DNA from: Chitinophaga terrae (ex Kim and Jung 2007) | Lineage (GTDB): Bacteria; Bacteroidota; Bacteroidia; Chitinophagales; Chitinophagaceae | Assembly (NCBI RefSeq): GCF_900107795.1 | Contig: NZ_FNRL01000004.1 | Coordinates: forward strand, 1-64,000 | Length of the DNA stretch: 64,000 bases | Reading direction: 5' to 3' | Shown here: piece after piece, positions 3,398 through 48,573 of the stretch | Position numbering within the stretch: the first letter of the stretch is position 1 | Layout of the letters: each line of letters opens with the position of its first letter | Made by a program: the position numbers and the translations under genes | Notes under the pieces: model-generated | Told to the model about the DNA's origin: nothing | The model's database searches: none | What the model saw: only the letters and a program-made list of their open reading frames with translations

Positions 3398-3477
3398 CGT
3401 GCCCCGCCAGGCAACAGTCGCAGATTTTCTGTATCTGCCCGCTATTTACTAACCGCATAATTATGTAACTTGGCCCC

Positions 3478-4242
3478 ATGGAAAAGAAAAAGATCATAGA
3501 GGTAGAGAATCTGGTTAAAAAGTATGGCGATTTCACCGCTGTAAAAGGAATCAGCTTTGACGTGTTCGAAGGCGAAATATTCGGGCTTCTCGGGCCTAAC
3601 GGAGCCGGAAAATCAACAACCCTGGAGATTATAGAAACCCTTAGGGAAAAAACCTCGGGAAAAGTAGTGGTAGGAGGTTATGATCTGGATAAATCACCGA
3701 ACGATATCAAAAAGATCATTGGCGTACAGTTGCAAAGTTCAGGCTATTACCCGGGCCTCAACCTGATAGAACTCATCGAAATGTTCGGAGGCCTGTACAA
3801 CCAACCCGTAAAGCCATTGCAGCTGCTGGGGATGTTCAACCTGGAAGATAAGGCCAAAGCCCAGTATAAAGAACTTTCGGGAGGTCAGAAACAGCGGTTT
3901 TCCATCGCTACCACCCTGATCAACAAACCTCAGATCATATTCTTGGATGAACCAACCACAGGTCTGGACCCCCAGGCCCGCCGCAATCTGTGGGACCTGA
4001 TACAGGAAGTCCGTAACCAGGGAACTACTGTGGTGATCACCACGCACTATATGGACGAAGCAGAATTCCTGTGCAACCGTTGCGCCATCGTCGATAGCGG
4101 CCGTATCATCGCCATCGATTCTCCCGACGCCCTGATAGACAAACTGGTTTCTTCAGGTTTTGAAAGAAAGAAAGAAGTGAAGAAGGCAAACCTGGAAGAT
4201 GTATTCATTCACCTCACCGGTAAAGAGCTGCGGGAAGAATAA
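3478..4242 (+). CDS. ABC transporter ATP-binding protein (ABC-2 type), no permease nearby
   Basis: 254-residue nucleotide-binding subunit with Walker A GPNGAGKST at 39-47, signature LSGGQ at 133-137, Walker B IIFLDEPT at 153-160 and the switch histidine in ITTHYMDEAE. The sequence is closest in style to the DrrA/CcmA-like ATPases that drive ABC-2 exporters. Such genes normally sit directly before the membrane subunit. Here the next gene, 12 bp downstream, is a DinB-family protein and no ABC-2 permease occurs anywhere in the window, so the partner must be encoded elsewhere. The C-terminal tail is short (ends about 80 residues after the D-loop). Cytoplasmic, membrane-associated. Substrate unknown. 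Confidence 0.9.
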   Translation: MEKKKIIEVENLVKKYGDFTAVKGISFDVFEGEIFGLLGPNGAGKSTTLEIIETLREKTSGKVVVGGYDLDKSPNDIKKIIGVQLQSSGYYPGLNLIELIEMFGGLYNQPVKPLQLLGMFNLEDKAKAQYKELSGGQKQRFSIATTLINKPQIIFLDEPTTGLDPQARRNLWDLIQEVRNQGTTVVITTHYMDEAEFLCNRCAIVDSGRIIAIDSPDALIDKLVSSGFERKKEVKKANLEDVFIHLTGKELREE

Positions 4243-4253
4243 ACTCCGCTTTT

Positions 4254-4781
4254 ATGGAAGAATTGCAATACCCGATAGGCAGGTTCAATCCTCCCGCTAC
4301 GATCACAGACGCCCAGTTAAGAAAGTATATTGATGACATCCGTTACCTTCCTCAACTGGTTGAATTAGCCGTGCAGAACATGGACGAATACCAGCTGCAA
4401 ACCCCTTACAGGCCGGGTGGCTGGACAGTAGCGCAGGTAATACATCATTTAGCCGATAGTCATATGAATGCGGTAGTGAGGATGAAACTGGCCTTAACAG
4501 AAAACAATCCTGTTATCAAACCGTACGACGAACAGGCCTGGGCTACATTGCCTGATGTCGCCAACACGCCCGTCAATGTTTCCATTACACTGCTTTATGC
4601 TTTGCATAACCGCTGGGTGAAATTACTGGAACACCTGGAGGCCGACGACTGGAATAAAACCTTCTATCATCCCGGCAGCGGCATCACCTACGATATGCGG
4701 CTGCTTGCCGCTACCTATTCCTGGCACGGGCTTCATCACCTGGAACATATTTTACGTTTAAAAGAAAGAATGGGGTGGTAA
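4254..4781 (+). CDS. DinB-family thiol transferase, YfiT/BstA-like
   Basis: 175 residues with the four-helix DinB/YfiT fold pattern: GGWTVAQVIHHLADSH (55-70) supplies the first metal histidine, and the C-terminal SWHGLHHLEHI (156-166) supplies the others. In Bacillus the YfiT-type member BstA transfers bacillithiol to electrophiles, and the opening 'YPIGRFxPP' is shared with that subgroup. The bacillithiol deacetylase BshB1 is encoded 16 kb downstream, which supports this reading. Translated 12 bp after the ABC ATPase and 17 bp before the Nudix gene, so probably co-transcribed with both. An alternative is a general metal-dependent hydrolase of the same fold. Confidence 0.82.
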   Translation: MEELQYPIGRFNPPATITDAQLRKYIDDIRYLPQLVELAVQNMDEYQLQTPYRPGGWTVAQVIHHLADSHMNAVVRMKLALTENNPVIKPYDEQAWATLPDVANTPVNVSITLLYALHNRWVKLLEHLEADDWNKTFYHPGSGITYDMRLLAATYSWHGLHHLEHILRLKERMGW

Positions 4782-43101: not shown

Positions 43102-43965
43102 TTATTGGGCAGGAGCCACGCTTGTTTGTGCATTATTGATAGGCCATACGCCAGGGGTAGGAACACTCACTCCTTTGGTGTTGCCTCTTGTATTGTTGTC
43201 TGGTCCGAAGTAATACAGCGGCCATCCTTTGTAGGTCAGCTGAGGCTTGCCATATACATGGATGGTATCAAAATCCGCTTTCTTCAGGATCGCAGGAATG
43301 CTTCCAATAGTAGCCAGGGAATCAATAGGCCAGAGCCCGTTGTTTGAAAAGTCTGGTTTCGTATAGGTATTGAGTTTATTTTTATCTGGTTTGAAAGAAT
43401 AGAGCGTTACCCCATTCTGATCTGTAATATACTTAGTCAGGCCATCGCCAACCTGGTAGTTGCCGAGGTAGTTCTTTCCATCATTGCCTGTTAACTGGTA
43501 TTGAGCGATCATAACAGCATAATCGTTCCTGGCAACAAACCAGATGCTGTCTGCTGCATCGCCCTTAACATCGCCCGCTTTTGAATCTACGGCATAGTAG
43601 TACAGGGGCCAGCCTTTGAAAGTAGTTTGTTTGCTGCCATCTGCGCGGGTAATAGTACCAAAATCGCTGCTGTTCAAACCGGTTCCCACGCTGAGGGAAG
43701 CCGAGTAATAAACAGGCCATGCCGACAGGCAGCCTCCTGTACAGGCGGAACTGCCGTTTGCATCCTTGGCAAAGAAATAAAGTGTTTTACCATTGCCATC
43801 GGTGAGGATGTTGCCGAACGTGGCATTAGCGGTGATCTGGATCTTGCCGCTGTTATCTGTATTGCCTCCTCCGCCGCCATAAGGGTCGTTATCGCTGCTT
43901 TTTGAACAGGCAATTATTTGTGTGATAGCTATCACCAGGCCTAAAATGATTGCATTTTTTTTCAT
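43102..43965 (-). CDS. Lipoprotein with Yx(FWY)xxD repeats (COG4315-like)
   Basis: 287 residues. The lipobox IIAC places the lipidated cysteine at Cys20, near the start. Four repeats follow of the type LTDGNGKTLYFFAKD / GWPLYYYAVD / LTDQNGVTLYSFKPD / GWPLYYFGPD, the Yx(FWY)xxD motif of a family of surface lipoproteins. The first repeat contains a Cys pair (C76 and C80, in SACTGGC) that may form a disulfide or bind a metal. Function unproven. Last gene of a five-gene group with YceI and cytochrome c genes. Confidence 0.8.
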   Translation of the reverse strand: MKKNAIILGLVIAITQIIACSKSSDNDPYGGGGGNTDNSGKIQITANATFGNILTDGNGKTLYFFAKDANGSSACTGGCLSAWPVYYSASLSVGTGLNSSDFGTITRADGSKQTTFKGWPLYYYAVDSKAGDVKGDAADSIWFVARNDYAVMIAQYQLTGNDGKNYLGNYQVGDGLTKYITDQNGVTLYSFKPDKNKLNTYTKPDFSNNGLWPIDSLATIGSIPAILKKADFDTIHVYGKPQLTYKGWPLYYFGPDNNTRGNTKGVSVPTPGVWPINNAQTSVAPAQ

Positions 43966-43976
43966 GATCGTGAGTT

Positions 43977-44885
43977 TTAATTCGTTTTGTGTTTATGTTT
44001 ATTCCAACCAAAAGCACGTGTTATATTGAATCCGAAATAGATATCCCCGTTATTCCAGGTACCGTTCGTCTGTGTCAGGTAAGCTGGTCCAACCATGCCC
44101 TGCGAATTGCTGAACACCAGCTGGAATACGTGGCCGCCTGTTTCAATATCTACTCCCATGCTCAGGGATGAATGCAGATCCTGCGACGGCAGCGGGTTAC
44201 CGGTGATGTAGTTGTATTCTGCGTTGACGCTTACCCGTTTGGTTATTTTCATTCTGCCGCCGGCGCTCAGGAGGAAAATATCATTTTTGTCGGCCAGGGT
44301 AGGTACCAGGTTGTAATGCACCCAGGAAGGCACCAGTTCCAGCGACAATCGTTCAGAGAATTTTCGTGCAATAAGCAACTGTGTAGTGTAGGCTGTCCGG
44401 TACGAGAAATCGAGATACGGTTTGTCGGTGTATTTAAGCGTTTGTGTTGTTGCCACTCCATAAATGCTGATGGCCACCGGCATGCTCTCCTTATTTTGAT
44501 AGGCGATAATATATTTCAGGGAGCCATCAAATGTTTTGTTCAGTGAACTGCGGCCAACGCCTACAGATAACCTGTTGGTGATCCCGTAATCAAGCCCGAA
44601 ACGGATGGTGGCGTTATCGAGGCCGAACAGTTCGTAAGCGCCTCCGTTGACCTTTCCGAACCGGTGCATGATCATGAACTGGAGGTTTTTTTTGCCGGGT
44701 TGTTCCACCGTTGGCAGGTTTACGATCTGGGTAGCCTTGAATATGGACCGCACCCTGGTATCAGCTTTTTCCTGGCCGGCGATCGAATCATTGAGGATGT
44801 TCAGCAGGTTGCTGTCTTTATCTTGCGCCCGCAACCCGGAAATAGCCAGTGCAAAACATGCGCTTAGTATTATTTTTTTTAGCAT
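43977..44885 (-). CDS. DUF5777 outer-membrane beta-barrel protein
   Basis: 302 residues. Signal peptide 1-20 (ending near GLRAQ), then about 270 residues of amphipathic strands with an end-of-barrel pattern (IYFGFNITRAFG). It starts with a charged stretch (KDSNLLNILNDSIAGQEKADTR) before the barrel. I recognise the opening 'VRSIFKATQIVNLPTVEQ' as DUF5777 of Bacteroidetes, a family usually found next to YceI and cytochrome-c-like genes, as here. Role unknown, possibly lipid or quinone handling at the outer membrane. Confidence 0.72.
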   Translation of the reverse strand: MLKKIILSACFALAISGLRAQDKDSNLLNILNDSIAGQEKADTRVRSIFKATQIVNLPTVEQPGKKNLQFMIMHRFGKVNGGAYELFGLDNATIRFGLDYGITNRLSVGVGRSSLNKTFDGSLKYIIAYQNKESMPVAISIYGVATTQTLKYTDKPYLDFSYRTAYTTQLLIARKFSERLSLELVPSWVHYNLVPTLADKNDIFLLSAGGRMKITKRVSVNAEYNYITGNPLPSQDLHSSLSMGVDIETGGHVFQLVFSNSQGMVGPAYLTQTNGTWNNGDIYFGFNITRAFGWNKHKHKTN

Positions 44886-44893
44886 GATGGATC

Positions 44894-45439
44894 TTATTTA
44901 TTCATTGCATTACAAGAGATAGTTATTACAACCTGTATGGTTTTGGCAACGCTGTTCTGAAGCAGCGATGGCAGCTTTATGTTGTAGTCGTCGTATGCCA
45001 CGTTGAAAGTAGACTTGCCTTTCAGCGTACCATTTGCTACCTCGATATCTGCCAGGGCCGTAACAGGTTTGGATACGCCATGCATGGCAAGCTGCCCGGA
45101 AACATGCACCTGGTACTTACCGTCTTTTGCAAGATTTACAGGGTCTGTGATCTTGCCTGTAAAACTGGCTTTAGGGTATTTATCGCTCTCCATCACTTCT
45201 TCGTTGAAATGGTCCTGCATCAGTTGTTTCTCAAACAGGAAACCTTTTACCAGCAGGTTGAATGCTACCTGGTTGTTGGAGGCGTCTATTACGGCCAGCA
45301 CCTGTTTGTTGGCTGCCTCGATATTTTCTGCTGCTGTTTTGGAGAAAAAACGGGCCTCCCCGTTGCGGGTAAAATATTTCTGGGCGTCGGCATTGCGGAA
45401 TAATCCCAGCAGCAGGCCGCATATCAGTAATTTTCTCAT
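44894..45439 (-). CDS. YceI-family periplasmic protein
   Basis: 181 residues with a signal peptide (about 1-20, GLFRNADAQ). YceI proteins form a lipocalin-like barrel that binds isoprenoids such as quinones; features here are NNQVAFNLLVKGFLFEKQLMQ, KYPKASFTGKI, and a C-terminal DDYNIKLPSLLQNSVAKTIQVVI strand pair, all of the family. Start of translation just downstream of the cytochrome c gene (27 bp). Likely binds an isoprenoid quinone or another amphiphile in the periplasm. Confidence 0.88.
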   Translation of the reverse strand: MRKLLICGLLLGLFRNADAQKYFTRNGEARFFSKTAAENIEAANKQVLAVIDASNNQVAFNLLVKGFLFEKQLMQDHFNEEVMESDKYPKASFTGKITDPVNLAKDGKYQVHVSGQLAMHGVSKPVTALADIEVANGTLKGKSTFNVAYDDYNIKLPSLLQNSVAKTIQVVITISCNAMNK

Positions 45440-45466
45440 ATAGCTACATTTGAGATGATCTGATCA

Positions 45467-45880
45467 TTAATTATTTAAAGCTCCTCTCTTGATCCAACTG
45501 TCAATTTTGTTGATATCGCATTCAGATAGTTGCGGGGCTCCCATAGGCATGGGCGAAACAGTGCCGGTATGCTTGATGGAACTTAAAAGCGCTCCATTTG
45601 CAGCTTCGGCTTTCAGGGTATTGAAGTCTTCCAGGTTCAATCCCGAATTGGTCCGGTATGTATTGGCGCTATGGCATTTATAGCAATTGGCGGTTAGTAT
45701 CGGGAGTACATTCGCCTGGTATTTCATACCAACGGTATCACAGGCGGTTGGCGGAGGTTCGCCGTTCGGGTTGTTGCGTAATGATTCTTCATTATCCTTT
45801 TTACAACTGTTCATCGACAAGCACCCGAGAATGAAAAGAGTTCCGGCGATAGCGGTTAATGTTTCTTTCTTGATCATCAT
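45467..45880 (-). CDS. Lipoprotein c-type cytochrome (single CxxCH)
   Basis: 137 residues. Signal peptide ends in the lipobox MNSC (Cys26), so the protein is a lipoprotein. One heme site, C66-Y-K-C69-H70, and a downstream methionine-rich PMPMGAP that could give the axial ligand. The spacing looks like the planctomycete-type cytochrome c (PSCyt1-like) domain. Matured in the periplasm by the ccm system seen at 14.8-17.8 kb. Sits between YceI and the OB-fold gene. Confidence 0.82.
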   Translation of the reverse strand: MMIKKETLTAIAGTLFILGCLSMNSCKKDNEESLRNNPNGEPPPTACDTVGMKYQANVLPILTANCYKCHSANTYRTNSGLNLEDFNTLKAEAANGALLSSIKHTGTVSPMPMGAPQLSECDINKIDSWIKRGALNN

Positions 45881-45885
45881 ATGGT

Positions 45886-46320
45886 TTATTTATGGTTTTG
45901 AGATGGTATGATGGCCGCGTCTACAATGTTGACGTCCATCAGGAATCCGAGGCAACGCCCTTTGACGGTAACCTGATCGCCTTTCTGTATTGGTGCAGCC
46001 GGGTTGGCCATGGTGCAGTTAACAGCGCCTGCGGCGTCTGTTCCTGCATCCAGCAGGATAGCTACAGCCCCGTTGGATGACTGCACATCGGCCACTGTTC
46101 CGGAAACCGCAACAACCTGGTTCGTGTATTTTTGATTGGCTTTCTCTTCGTCTGTGTTGAAATCGTGATAGAGTTGAGCAGACGATACATCGATAGCGTT
46201 GGCAGAAAGATCAACCGGCTGCCTGGTACGGTGATAGGCTTTCCAGCCCCATGTGCCGCCTACGATGCCGCATAGCAAAAGGATCCCTATAACGGAAAAA
46301 ATCACTTTTTTTCGTTTCAT
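45886..46320 (-). CDS. OB-fold (tRNA_anti-like) membrane-anchored protein
   Basis: 144 residues. N-terminal membrane anchor (about 6-25) and a compact beta domain (about 60-140; VVAVSGTVADVQSSNGAVAILLD, VTVKGRCLGFLMDVNIVDA) that matches the OB-fold of the tRNA_anti-like family. It has a conserved cysteine in VNCTMAN. Function unknown. First gene of the five-gene group that includes cytochrome c and YceI, with 5 bp to the next gene. Confidence 0.75.
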   Translation of the reverse strand: MKRKKVIFSVIGILLLCGIVGGTWGWKAYHRTRQPVDLSANAIDVSSAQLYHDFNTDEEKANQKYTNQVVAVSGTVADVQSSNGAVAILLDAGTDAAGAVNCTMANPAAPIQKGDQVTVKGRCLGFLMDVNIVDAAIIPSQNHK

Positions 46321-46401
46321 TTTTTTGGAAATTATTGTTGATTGGAAATATGAATTCTACTGCGTACGCATTACCTGGCGATAGCGTCGTTTTCCATTTC
46401 T

Positions 46402-47793
46402 CTAAAGGTTTTTCTTAATCGATATTTGCGCTCCCACGCTGCCGAGCGATATGTTGCCATATCCTACGTTGCTCATGGGAATTTTTACATAAGGAGCAAT
46501 TTGAAGTGATAAATTTTTAAACTGTTGTTCGTACCCCGCCGATATGTTTGCAGATGGCAGTATACTTTTTCCTTTTCCTGTGACGTCCTGGTTAACAGGC
46601 GGATTGTTGTAGTACTGGTAGGAATAGGATTGTTTTACCATCCACATTGTTGAAACGCCTGTACTTACGAAAACATCTCCTTTCCCGGAACGCACTACGT
46701 CGTACCGCACATTCAGAGGGATATCCAGCATCGTACATTTTCCGCCCATATTGGAAACGCTGGGGGGAATTGTTACGCCATCGGGGTGGAAAGTGTTTCT
46801 TGTAACATTGTAGGTCATTGATTCCCTGACGATCCCTAATTCTACAGAAAACCTGGATGTAGCGGAGAACCTTCTCTGTACCATCAGCCCTGTATTCAGG
46901 CCCAGGCCATGCGACAGGGTTCCTTTAATAACACTGGCATTTGCGCCCACAGCCAGGCCAATGTTCCATTTGGATCGTGAATAGACCTCTCGTTTCCGTT
47001 TCTTTTTCTCCTGGCTGGAAGCGCTATCTCCGTTGGCATTGTTTTTCTGCGTTAAGCCTGCAAGCCCGGCTTTCTGAGGGGTGGCGGTCTGTTCGGAAGC
47101 CTGTCCGGTTACGTTATTGACAGGCGACTCCGTTTTCGCCAGGTTGTTTTTTTCTTTATCCGCTGCAATCATTGCAGGCGCCCCGGTCAAAGGTTCCTGG
47201 CTGGCGGTTTCGCCGGCAGGTATGCCTGCTTTCTCCTGTTTATTACTTTCTTTACCCGTTCCATCCTTTGCCGGCAAGCCGCTTAAAGGATTATTACCGG
47301 CAGCTGCATCCCGCTGTGCTGTGCCTGCGTAACCTGCCTGCGTATCTTGCCTGTTAACCTGTCCCGGATCTTTGTCGGCGCCCGTGCCGGTTGATGGACG
47401 GGGATTTGTTGAATTGACATATTGACTATCGGCGGTGATTTTCCCTGCGCCCGGCGATACCGGCGCCGTTGTTTTCACCTTGTCCGACTGCCTTGGAACC
47501 AGGAAGTTATCAGGTTTCTTGTTGTATTCAGTCCAAAGAACTATCAATAAAGCCAGACCCAATACCGGGATCGCCCTCCATGAAAAGATCAGATGCGAGT
47601 ATTGGCCCCAAAACGCGATGAGTGGAGTATACCAGAAAATCGGCTTTTTCCTGTCCTTATCTGAATGCAGGTAATTGTTGTAAAAATCATCCCACGCACC
47701 TTCCGGTGCAGCAGGTGGTTCAAATTGATCTGCCGCATCCTTAAAAAGCTTATCCAGCTCTTTATCACTCATATCTTTGAAAATCTTTGGCAT
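46402..47793 (-). CDS. Single-pass protein with anti-sigma-like head and outer-membrane-like beta-barrel tail
   Basis: 463 residues. Cytoplasmic head (1-50) with the acidic helix KELDKLFKDAADQFEPP and EGAWDDFYNNYL, a pattern I associate with Bacteroidetes ECF anti-sigma-like proteins. One helix (about 74-87, IPVLGLALLIVLW) spans the inner membrane. A long low-complexity periplasmic linker (about 95-265) leads to a C-terminal barrel-like domain (about 270-463, WNIGLAVGANASVIKG ... SLQIAPYVKIPMSN). The start overlaps the sigma factor gene by 29 bp. Probable anti-sigma partner of that factor. Topology across both membranes is unusual. Confidence 0.7.
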   Translation of the reverse strand: MPKIFKDMSDKELDKLFKDAADQFEPPAAPEGAWDDFYNNYLHSDKDRKKPIFWYTPLIAFWGQYSHLIFSWRAIPVLGLALLIVLWTEYNKKPDNFLVPRQSDKVKTTAPVSPGAGKITADSQYVNSTNPRPSTGTGADKDPGQVNRQDTQAGYAGTAQRDAAAGNNPLSGLPAKDGTGKESNKQEKAGIPAGETASQEPLTGAPAMIAADKEKNNLAKTESPVNNVTGQASEQTATPQKAGLAGLTQKNNANGDSASSQEKKKRKREVYSRSKWNIGLAVGANASVIKGTLSHGLGLNTGLMVQRRFSATSRFSVELGIVRESMTYNVTRNTFHPDGVTIPPSVSNMGGKCTMLDIPLNVRYDVVRSGKGDVFVSTGVSTMWMVKQSYSYQYYNNPPVNQDVTGKGKSILPSANISAGYEQQFKNLSLQIAPYVKIPMSNVGYGNISLGSVGAQISIKKNL

Positions 47794-48346
47794 AATACTT
47801 TTCTAGCATTTTTCGCAGGGTTTTCCTCGCTTTCAACAAGTTGGATTTTGACGTACCAACCGAAATTCCCAACATCCCGGCAACCTCTTCGTGCGATAAT
47901 CCCTCTATTACATAGAGGTTAAATGTATTTCTATAGGCAGGGCTTAATTGCTGTATCAGCGTAAGCAGTTCCTTATACGAAATGTCTGTGATGGAATTAT
48001 CATTAGCCCCATATTCGTTTTCCAACTGCTTGTCCATTTGGCCCCACGACACTTTACGCTTCCTGGACTTCATATTATTAAGGCATGTATTGATCATAAT
48101 CCTTTTCAACCAACCCATGAATGCCTTTTCACCTTCGGCTTCCAATCCCGGCAACTCAAATGACGAAATATTCCTGAATATCTTCACAAAACCATCGTTC
48201 AGGCATTCCAAAGCATCTCCTTCGTTTTCGGTAAAACGATAACACACCGAGTAGGCATACCCGTAGTAACTTTCGTATAACAGTCGCTGGTCAATTGTTT
48301 TTTCTTGTTTACAACCTTCCAGGATTTCCGGTAATTTATATTTCAT
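47765..48346 (-). CDS. ECF-type RNA polymerase sigma factor
   Basis: 193 residues. Region 2 (about 28-60): YGYAYSVCYRFTENEGDALECLNDGFVKIF, the -10 binding and core-binding helices. Region 4 (about 145-182): SHEEVAGMLGISVGTSKSNLLKARKTLRKML, the -35 helix-turn-helix. No conserved C-terminal extension. Its 3' end overlaps the start of the anti-sigma-like barrel gene, a normal arrangement for translational coupling of a sigma factor with its regulator. Likely drives its own operon and perhaps the cytochrome/YceI block below. Confidence 0.9.
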   Translation of the reverse strand: MKYKLPEILEGCKQEKTIDQRLLYESYYGYAYSVCYRFTENEGDALECLNDGFVKIFRNISSFELPGLEAEGEKAFMGWLKRIMINTCLNNMKSRKRKVSWGQMDKQLENEYGANDNSITDISYKELLTLIQQLSPAYRNTFNLYVIEGLSHEEVAGMLGISVGTSKSNLLKARKTLRKMLEKYYAKDFQRYE

Positions 48347-48573
48347 TCACAGTTGAGCGCCTTACTTAATTGTTTATGTACTCGATCAGATGTATTGTAA
48401 GTATAAACATCTATTTTTTTAAGGAGGTTGCCTCCGGCTAAAAAAAACTGCTGAGTTCCCGGGAGCAGACGCAGGCATGGTGCTTGCAGATGCGGGGCCA
48501 AGGTTATATTTTTAAAAATAACATCCCTTAAAAAGCTGACTTACAATTTTTTAAGTATATTGGCTAACTAATA

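Follow-up and report, generated by a model that had tools for sequence, protein, structure and literature searches.

Genes at the locus

The window analysed here is a stretch of 64,000 nucleotides from Chitinophaga terrae. On its minus strand, positions 47765-48346 encode a 193-amino-acid ECF sigma factor, in which Sigma70_r2 and Sigma70_r4_2 score above their Pfam cut-offs, as does the general ECF model TIGR02937. As to ECF class, with the ECF21 group under consideration, general ECF models alone matched this sigma factor among the Pfam and NCBIfam models searched. The general ECF sigma model has 91 matches in the same genome at E 1e-5 or better, and at another locus of that genome (L078:903-2162) two closely similar ECF sigma ORFs lie in tandem before a FecR-like anti-sigma gene.

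A second gene, termed dma below, occupies positions 46402-47793 of the minus strand and encodes a 463-amino-acid protein that we take for a putative Dma-type anti-sigma factor, with the sigma factor as its likely Das-like partner. As the initial annotation had stated, dma starts inside the sigma gene; the ORF coordinates give an overlap of 29 nt (47765-47793, minus strand). The two genes are the first of a seven-gene operon (43102-48346, minus strand), in which the gaps after dma measure 81, 5, 27, 8 and 11 nt. The five downstream genes, together with a promoter signature described below, are what the present analysis adds to the initial annotation.

Architecture of the 463-residue protein

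The product of dma is predicted to consist of a head (residues 1-67), a helix (approximately 68-90), a disordered linker (approximately 91-272) and an eight-stranded outer-membrane barrel (275-462). Only one hydrophobic segment, at residues 68-86, rises above threshold, which agrees with the single membrane helix of the initial annotation. An AlphaFold2 model built on a 48-row alignment places two helices in the head (10-23 and 33-42) and, at lower confidence, a further helix at 74-90. The short head described earlier is thus present, but its supposed acidity is mild, with a pI of 4.86 and 12 D/E against 9 K/R for residues 1-66. The head is conserved in the alignment of relatives, and no anti-sigma model in Pfam or NCBIfam matches it. 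The window also carries an extra hydrophobic stretch before the helix (47580-47645, residues ~51-72) that is missing in the 19 genus relatives aligned.

The low-complexity linker, previously put at about 170 residues, comes to 178 when counted from residue 95 to 272 and to 187 when the start of the barrel is placed by profile. It is composed mostly of A, G, K, T, N, S, P and Q, and ten-residue blocks between 91 and 260 average pLDDT values of 43-52, indicative of disorder. In a set of 109 proteins (79 from named relatives, 29 from the genus and that of the window, with some species in both sets), linkers range from 119 to 384 residues with a median of 162, compared with 187 in the window, and their cysteine content is 0.0%. 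Because the linker is disordered and variable in length, it is best regarded as a slack tether, and with such a range a fixed span is unlikely to matter. The 'direct wire' from surface to sigma factor proposed in the initial annotation is therefore not supported in a mechanical sense, and a taut wire was discarded on the disorder of the linker and the spread of its lengths.

The C-terminal part matches PF13568 (OMP_b-brl_2) at residues 264-430 (35.1 bits; cut-off 27). Structure prediction, which had been suggested as a check on this region, yields an outer-membrane barrel with eight long strands within residues 275-462, and from residue 281 on the blocks have pLDDT values of 89-97, except for one of 76; a ninth short strand in the model (397-404) is read as probably part of a loop. 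When the barrel was searched with Foldseek, OmpA, Ail, NspA and OmpX were among the top matches. Pairwise comparison by VIA-align gave Z 18.1 with the N-terminal barrel of OprF (2.0 A over 130 residues), Z 17.9 with NspA (3.0 A over 152) and Z 17.5 with OmpA (2.6 A over 132). These results bear out the barrel-like C-terminus, and a soluble beta-domain is ruled out as far as prediction by AlphaFold2, Foldseek and VIA-align can do so. The barrel is also the most conserved part of the protein, with invariant residues G302, Y328, C353, G379, S381, M385, Y390, P434, P439, G444 and G454. Prediction thus supports a single chain that runs from a cytoplasmic head through one helix and a disordered linker in the periplasm to a barrel in the outer membrane.

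The gene pair in related genomes

A protein match was found at E 1e-4 in 56 of 60 genomes of the same genus, that of the window included. Among the best 29 of the 55 other matching genomes, an ECF gene lies directly upstream on the same strand at every locus (29/29). It overlaps the downstream gene at 28 of these, and among named relatives at 74 of 80 loci, counts that are favoured by our picking of starts near the sigma stop. The named loci are the best 80 of 284 named relatives, and in 79 of them the next gene upstream, in the same orientation, is the ECF gene. A single-sequence scan of the named genomes with the window protein had returned no relatives; a 20-row profile did find them. The exception is Ilyomonas limi (L125), where a full Dma-like protein (3407-4582) has no adjoining sigma gene and a metal-ATPase-like gene lies upstream.

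The pairing extends to the order of Sunxiuqinia. In a sample of 148 genomes from this order, 101 have some profile match at E 0.001, many of them to one part of the protein only. The profile reaches proteins of the same layout there, and 18 of 19 matches inspected have an ECF gene upstream. The association with ECF genes in other Bacteroidetes for which the initial annotation had proposed to look is found in all three sets of loci. As architecture and overlap both recur in relatives, neither is a product of chance.

When the profile was used to search the genome of the window for further members, it returned a single full-length member, the window's own. The same genome has a split counterpart (L076:1940-4446, minus strand) consisting of an ECF sigma factor of 161 amino acids, a single-pass protein of 344 amino acids and a separate PF13568 barrel. 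The 344-amino-acid protein has a TTG start, a sub-threshold zf-HC2 match and a long low-complexity tail; the barrel, of 313 amino acids, has its own signal peptide. At six loci in other Bacteroidota (L184, L185, L186, L188, L193 and L228), proteins of 225-263 amino acids consist of head, helix and low-complexity tail and lack the barrel.

Downstream genes

All five genes that follow dma are on the minus strand. The first (45886-46320), 81 nt after dma, encodes a membrane-anchored OB-fold protein (tRNA_anti-like, PF12869), and the second (45467-45880), after a gap of 5 nt, a cytochrome c-like lipoprotein with a CYKCH haem-c motif whose Pfam matches are below cut-off. There follow, at 27 nt, a secreted protein of the YceI family (44894-45439; PF04264, 52.9 bits), at 8 nt, a DUF5777 outer-membrane barrel (43977-44885; PF19089, 320 bits) and, at 11 nt, a Lipoprotein_15 lipoprotein in which PF03640 matches three stretches (43102-43965). 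For the DUF5777 protein a 12-stranded barrel is predicted (model pLDDT 86.2), closest to FapF, KdgM, NanC and a COG4313 channel with Z 16.6-18.1.

All ORFs of the window with a length of 130 amino acids or above were searched against the 80 named loci. Homologues of the Lipoprotein_15, DUF5777 and YceI proteins accompany the related pairs at 32, 26 and 24 of the 80 loci respectively, and those of the cytochrome c-like lipoprotein and the OB-fold protein at 8 and 7; the pair itself excepted, the other ORFs have homologues in 0-3 of the 80 flanks. At least one module gene occurs in the flanks of 51 loci, and one other than Lipoprotein_15 in those of 26. The flanks examined at the remaining 29 loci, some of which are short contigs, contain none. 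Chitinophaga sp. CF418 (L129) and a Flavihumibacter MAG (L109) have the OB-fold, cytochrome, YceI and DUF5777 genes after dma in the same order as the window. On a quick tree of the sigma factors, in which the window is a long branch, linkage to the module is scattered: the starred branches require at least 7 changes and parsimony 10. Repeated keeping, loss or gain would all fit this pattern. TonB-dependent signalling was rejected because the genes conserved around the 80 loci include none of that kind.

YceI proteins are isoprenoid-binding. Taken with a haem-c lipoprotein and a channel, the presence of such a protein suggests a role in envelope redox or lipid handling. In the literature searched, no paper was found for 'DUF5777', nothing on this gene set under YceI, sigma factor, cytochrome c, Bacteroidetes or COG4315, and no work on an anti-sigma factor with a beta-barrel in Chitinophaga.

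A promoter signature shared by relatives

The region upstream of the sigma gene was compared in 75 relatives and in the window. The sequence GCAACC-N14..18-CGTA occurs in 46 of these 76 regions, the window's not being among them, whereas the mean over 200 dinucleotide shuffles was 0.025. Every spacer found is N15 or N16. Of the 79 loci, four were left out of this count for want of a start or of sufficient upstream sequence, and after thinning to 46 dissimilar regions the motif remains in 18. Among the genus loci it is found on the dma strand in 26 of 29. Both strands of all 80 loci, 676 kb in total, contain 86 occurrences, which precede the sigma gene (47), Lipoprotein_15 (27), a cytochrome c lipoprotein (5), other genes (2) or no ORF (5). 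At five loci (L082, L087, L097, L100 and L133) the signature lies right behind dma and ahead of a small cytochrome c lipoprotein gene.

Because the motif had been derived from the 80 loci themselves, a separate test was run on DUF5777 genes. Twenty loci in 16 genomes were chosen by family and not by motif, although some of the genomes had also supplied sigma loci from which the motif was derived; the strict motif is upstream at 9 of the 20 (shuffles 0.04), and with the last C relaxed at 14 (shuffles 0.06). All nine strict cases belong to Chitinophaga or Pedobacter, and so represent few independent cases. Two DUF5777 loci were read in their entirety, and in both the motif is followed first by the cytochrome c lipoprotein gene, then by YceI and then by DUF5777. 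A stricter form of the motif, fitted to these same sites, has 12 matches in 10 whole Pedobacter and Sphingobacterium genomes, compared with 5 in the reversed control. By coordinates, nine of the 12 are sigma promoters, one precedes Lipoprotein_15 and one a YceI-DUF5777 operon. Neighbourhood and promoter are thus two routes to the same candidate regulon of five genes. Neither this regulon candidate nor the promoter signature was found in the literature searched, and both are new here.

The promoter region in the window

The window has a -35-like element, GGCAACC (48426-48432, minus strand), approximately 85 nt ahead of the point where the sigma gene starts. Against the matrix of the relatives, built from 18 dissimilar sites, this left half of the site reaches 14.1 bits. 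Where relatives have CGTA, the -10 position reads TGTTTA (48404-48409, minus strand), a diverged and weak element whose right-half score is -2.9 bits. The whole site scores 11.2 bits, as much as is reached by 8 of 366 equally sized pieces of the window. Across the window's own genome the strict motif has 9 matches, as does the reversed control, and the regulon therefore cannot be read from the motif there.

Region 4 of an ECF sigma factor reads the -35 element and region 2 the -10 element. With region borders taken from Pfam positions, conservation of region 4 is typical in the window (62.6%, relatives' mean 63.3%), while region 2, at 37.8% compared with 46.0% in relatives, is the second lowest of 51. 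A typical region 4 and a diverged region 2 match a kept -35 and a lost -10 element, a correspondence that is suggestive at the sequence level. The window's sigma factor forms a long branch (1.5) on the quick sigma tree, so that a regulon carried over to it from its relatives is tentative.

Proposed mechanism and alternatives

We consider it probable that the pair is a Dma-type anti-sigma factor working with the overlapping ECF sigma factor and that it heads an autoregulated envelope operon. By analogy with Dma2 and EcfO-Reo, the cytoplasmic head would hold the sigma factor and thereby repress its activity until a cue arrives from the outer membrane. The single helix would anchor the anti-sigma factor in the inner membrane and the slack disordered tether would cross the periplasm to the OmpA-like eight-stranded barrel, the putative sensing end in the outer membrane. 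A change there, whether a ligand or stress or misassembly of the barrel, might then release the sigma factor, most likely by proteolysis of the tether and helix. Free sigma factor would transcribe the operon from the putative promoter with the GGCAACC -35 element, so raising the amounts of sigma factor, OB-fold protein, cytochrome c-like lipoprotein, YceI, DUF5777 channel and Lipoprotein_15. The envelope genes headed by the pair are very probably under its control. Because dma would lie in the sigma-driven transcript, more anti-sigma factor would be made as well, providing feedback, again by the same analogy.

A variant that retains the anti-sigma role, and to which we give somewhat less than an even chance, is that the barrel reports on assembly: overload of BAM would leave an unfolded barrel or an exposed tether to be cut, freeing the sigma factor in what would be a sigma-E-like stress response within one protein. 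Linkers that are long, disordered and practically free of cysteine favour this variant. So does the induction of the EcfO regulon by BcpT, together with the response of many co-induced genes to bacteroidetocin A, a BamA inhibitor, and the proposal of outer-membrane stress as the signal by the authors of EcfO-Reo (PMC9308784, PMC13114119). Dma2's authors, however, suggest a glycan ligand (PMC13088901), and the invariant residues sit in the barrel, where folding or a ligand site could explain them either way.

It is improbable that the protein is cut after export into separating halves, giving an inner-membrane anti-sigma factor and a free outer-membrane barrel. The split sigma factor, single-pass anti-sigma-like protein and separate PF13568 barrel elsewhere in the genome provide a precedent, but the fused form is kept beside the sigma gene at 79 of the 80 named loci and the barrel is its most conserved part.

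We regard it as equally doubtful that another sigma factor or regulator reads the promoter signature and that the module is a mere frequent neighbour. A -35 sequence can be common to several related ECF factors, and the 91 ECF-like matches in the genome offer other candidates. Against this, most relatives carry the signature ahead of the sigma gene itself, and it also precedes module operons that are not linked to that gene, as is typical of an ECF factor that regulates its own expression. Moreover, 11 of the 12 genome-wide matches of the stricter form in 10 genomes fall on the sigma and module set.

A reading in which the head has no anti-sigma role and the two genes are merely translationally coupled is very unlikely. 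The lack of a match between the head and the anti-sigma models of Pfam and NCBIfam would favour it, but the conservation of the head, the coupling of the genes across orders and the genetic evidence of repression by the same architecture elsewhere (PMC13088901, PMC9308784, PMC13114119) all speak against it.

For the proposed Dma-type anti-sigma factor and its envelope operon, a broader reading seems to us about evenly balanced between right and wrong. Under it, the Dma design would have, outside gut Bacteroides, a conserved, narrow and different job: sensing the state of the outer membrane and switching on an envelope redox or lipid module (cytochrome c lipoprotein, YceI, 12-stranded DUF5777 channel and Lipoprotein_15) through GCAACC-N16-CGTA across Chitinophagaceae, Sphingobacteriaceae and their relatives. 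In the window the whole regulon would be gathered in one operon, and sigma region 2 would have drifted together with the -10 element. If this is true, the window offers an example from nature in which a sigma factor has altered one half of its promoter.

Comparison with known systems

In systems of the FecA-FecR-FecI type, an outer-membrane signal passes through a single-pass anti-sigma factor to an ECF sigma factor. This type needs a separate TonB-dependent receptor, whereas the predicted barrel of the window is part of the anti-sigma chain itself and has eight strands.

The arrangement of head, helix, tether and barrel beside an ECF gene has been published as a sigma/anti-sigma pair (PMC13088901, PMC9308784, PMC13114119). 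The novelty of the architecture therefore falls away, as it has already been named Dma (PMC13088901) and also Reo. Matched by predicted layout and by pairing, the window protein appears to be a further member of the published Dma design. That design is known from gut bacteria and is found here in a soil bacterium. In Bacteroides the reported outputs (vesicles, NigD and PULs) point to no single signal, and free-living hosts such as Chitinophaga and Pedobacter are suited to asking what the barrel senses.

By description (PMC13088901), a close likeness is to Dma1 and Dma2, which have an adjacent ECF gene, an N-terminal sigma-binding head (a function the window's head would share by analogy), one helix, a long disordered tether and a C-terminal barrel. 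In the same source, loss of Dma2 increases vesiculation only when Das2 is present. The outputs of Dma1 and Dma2 described there are OMV production, NigD1 and PULs, in contrast to the cytochrome c-like lipoprotein, YceI, DUF5777, Lipoprotein_15 and OB-fold proteins of the window operon. Dma3 of B. thetaiotaomicron shares the membrane-spanning layout, but its sigma domain is fused to the N-terminus and it has no separate sigma gene (PMC13088901); the window has two genes.

EcfO-Reo of Bacteroides fragilis and Phocaeicola vulgatus is similar in having an anti-sigma factor that reaches from the cytoplasm to the outer surface, with the sigma gene upstream, and it is marked by derepression upon loss of the anti-sigma factor (PMC9308784, PMC13114119). 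In P. vulgatus, this loss turns the regulon on and exposure to the toxin BcpT induces it (same sources). A sample of 198 genomes from the phylum to which the window belongs contained no NigD_N. The EcfO-Reo regulon includes three nigD genes and a glycosyltransferase (PMC9308784, PMC13114119), unlike the window operon.
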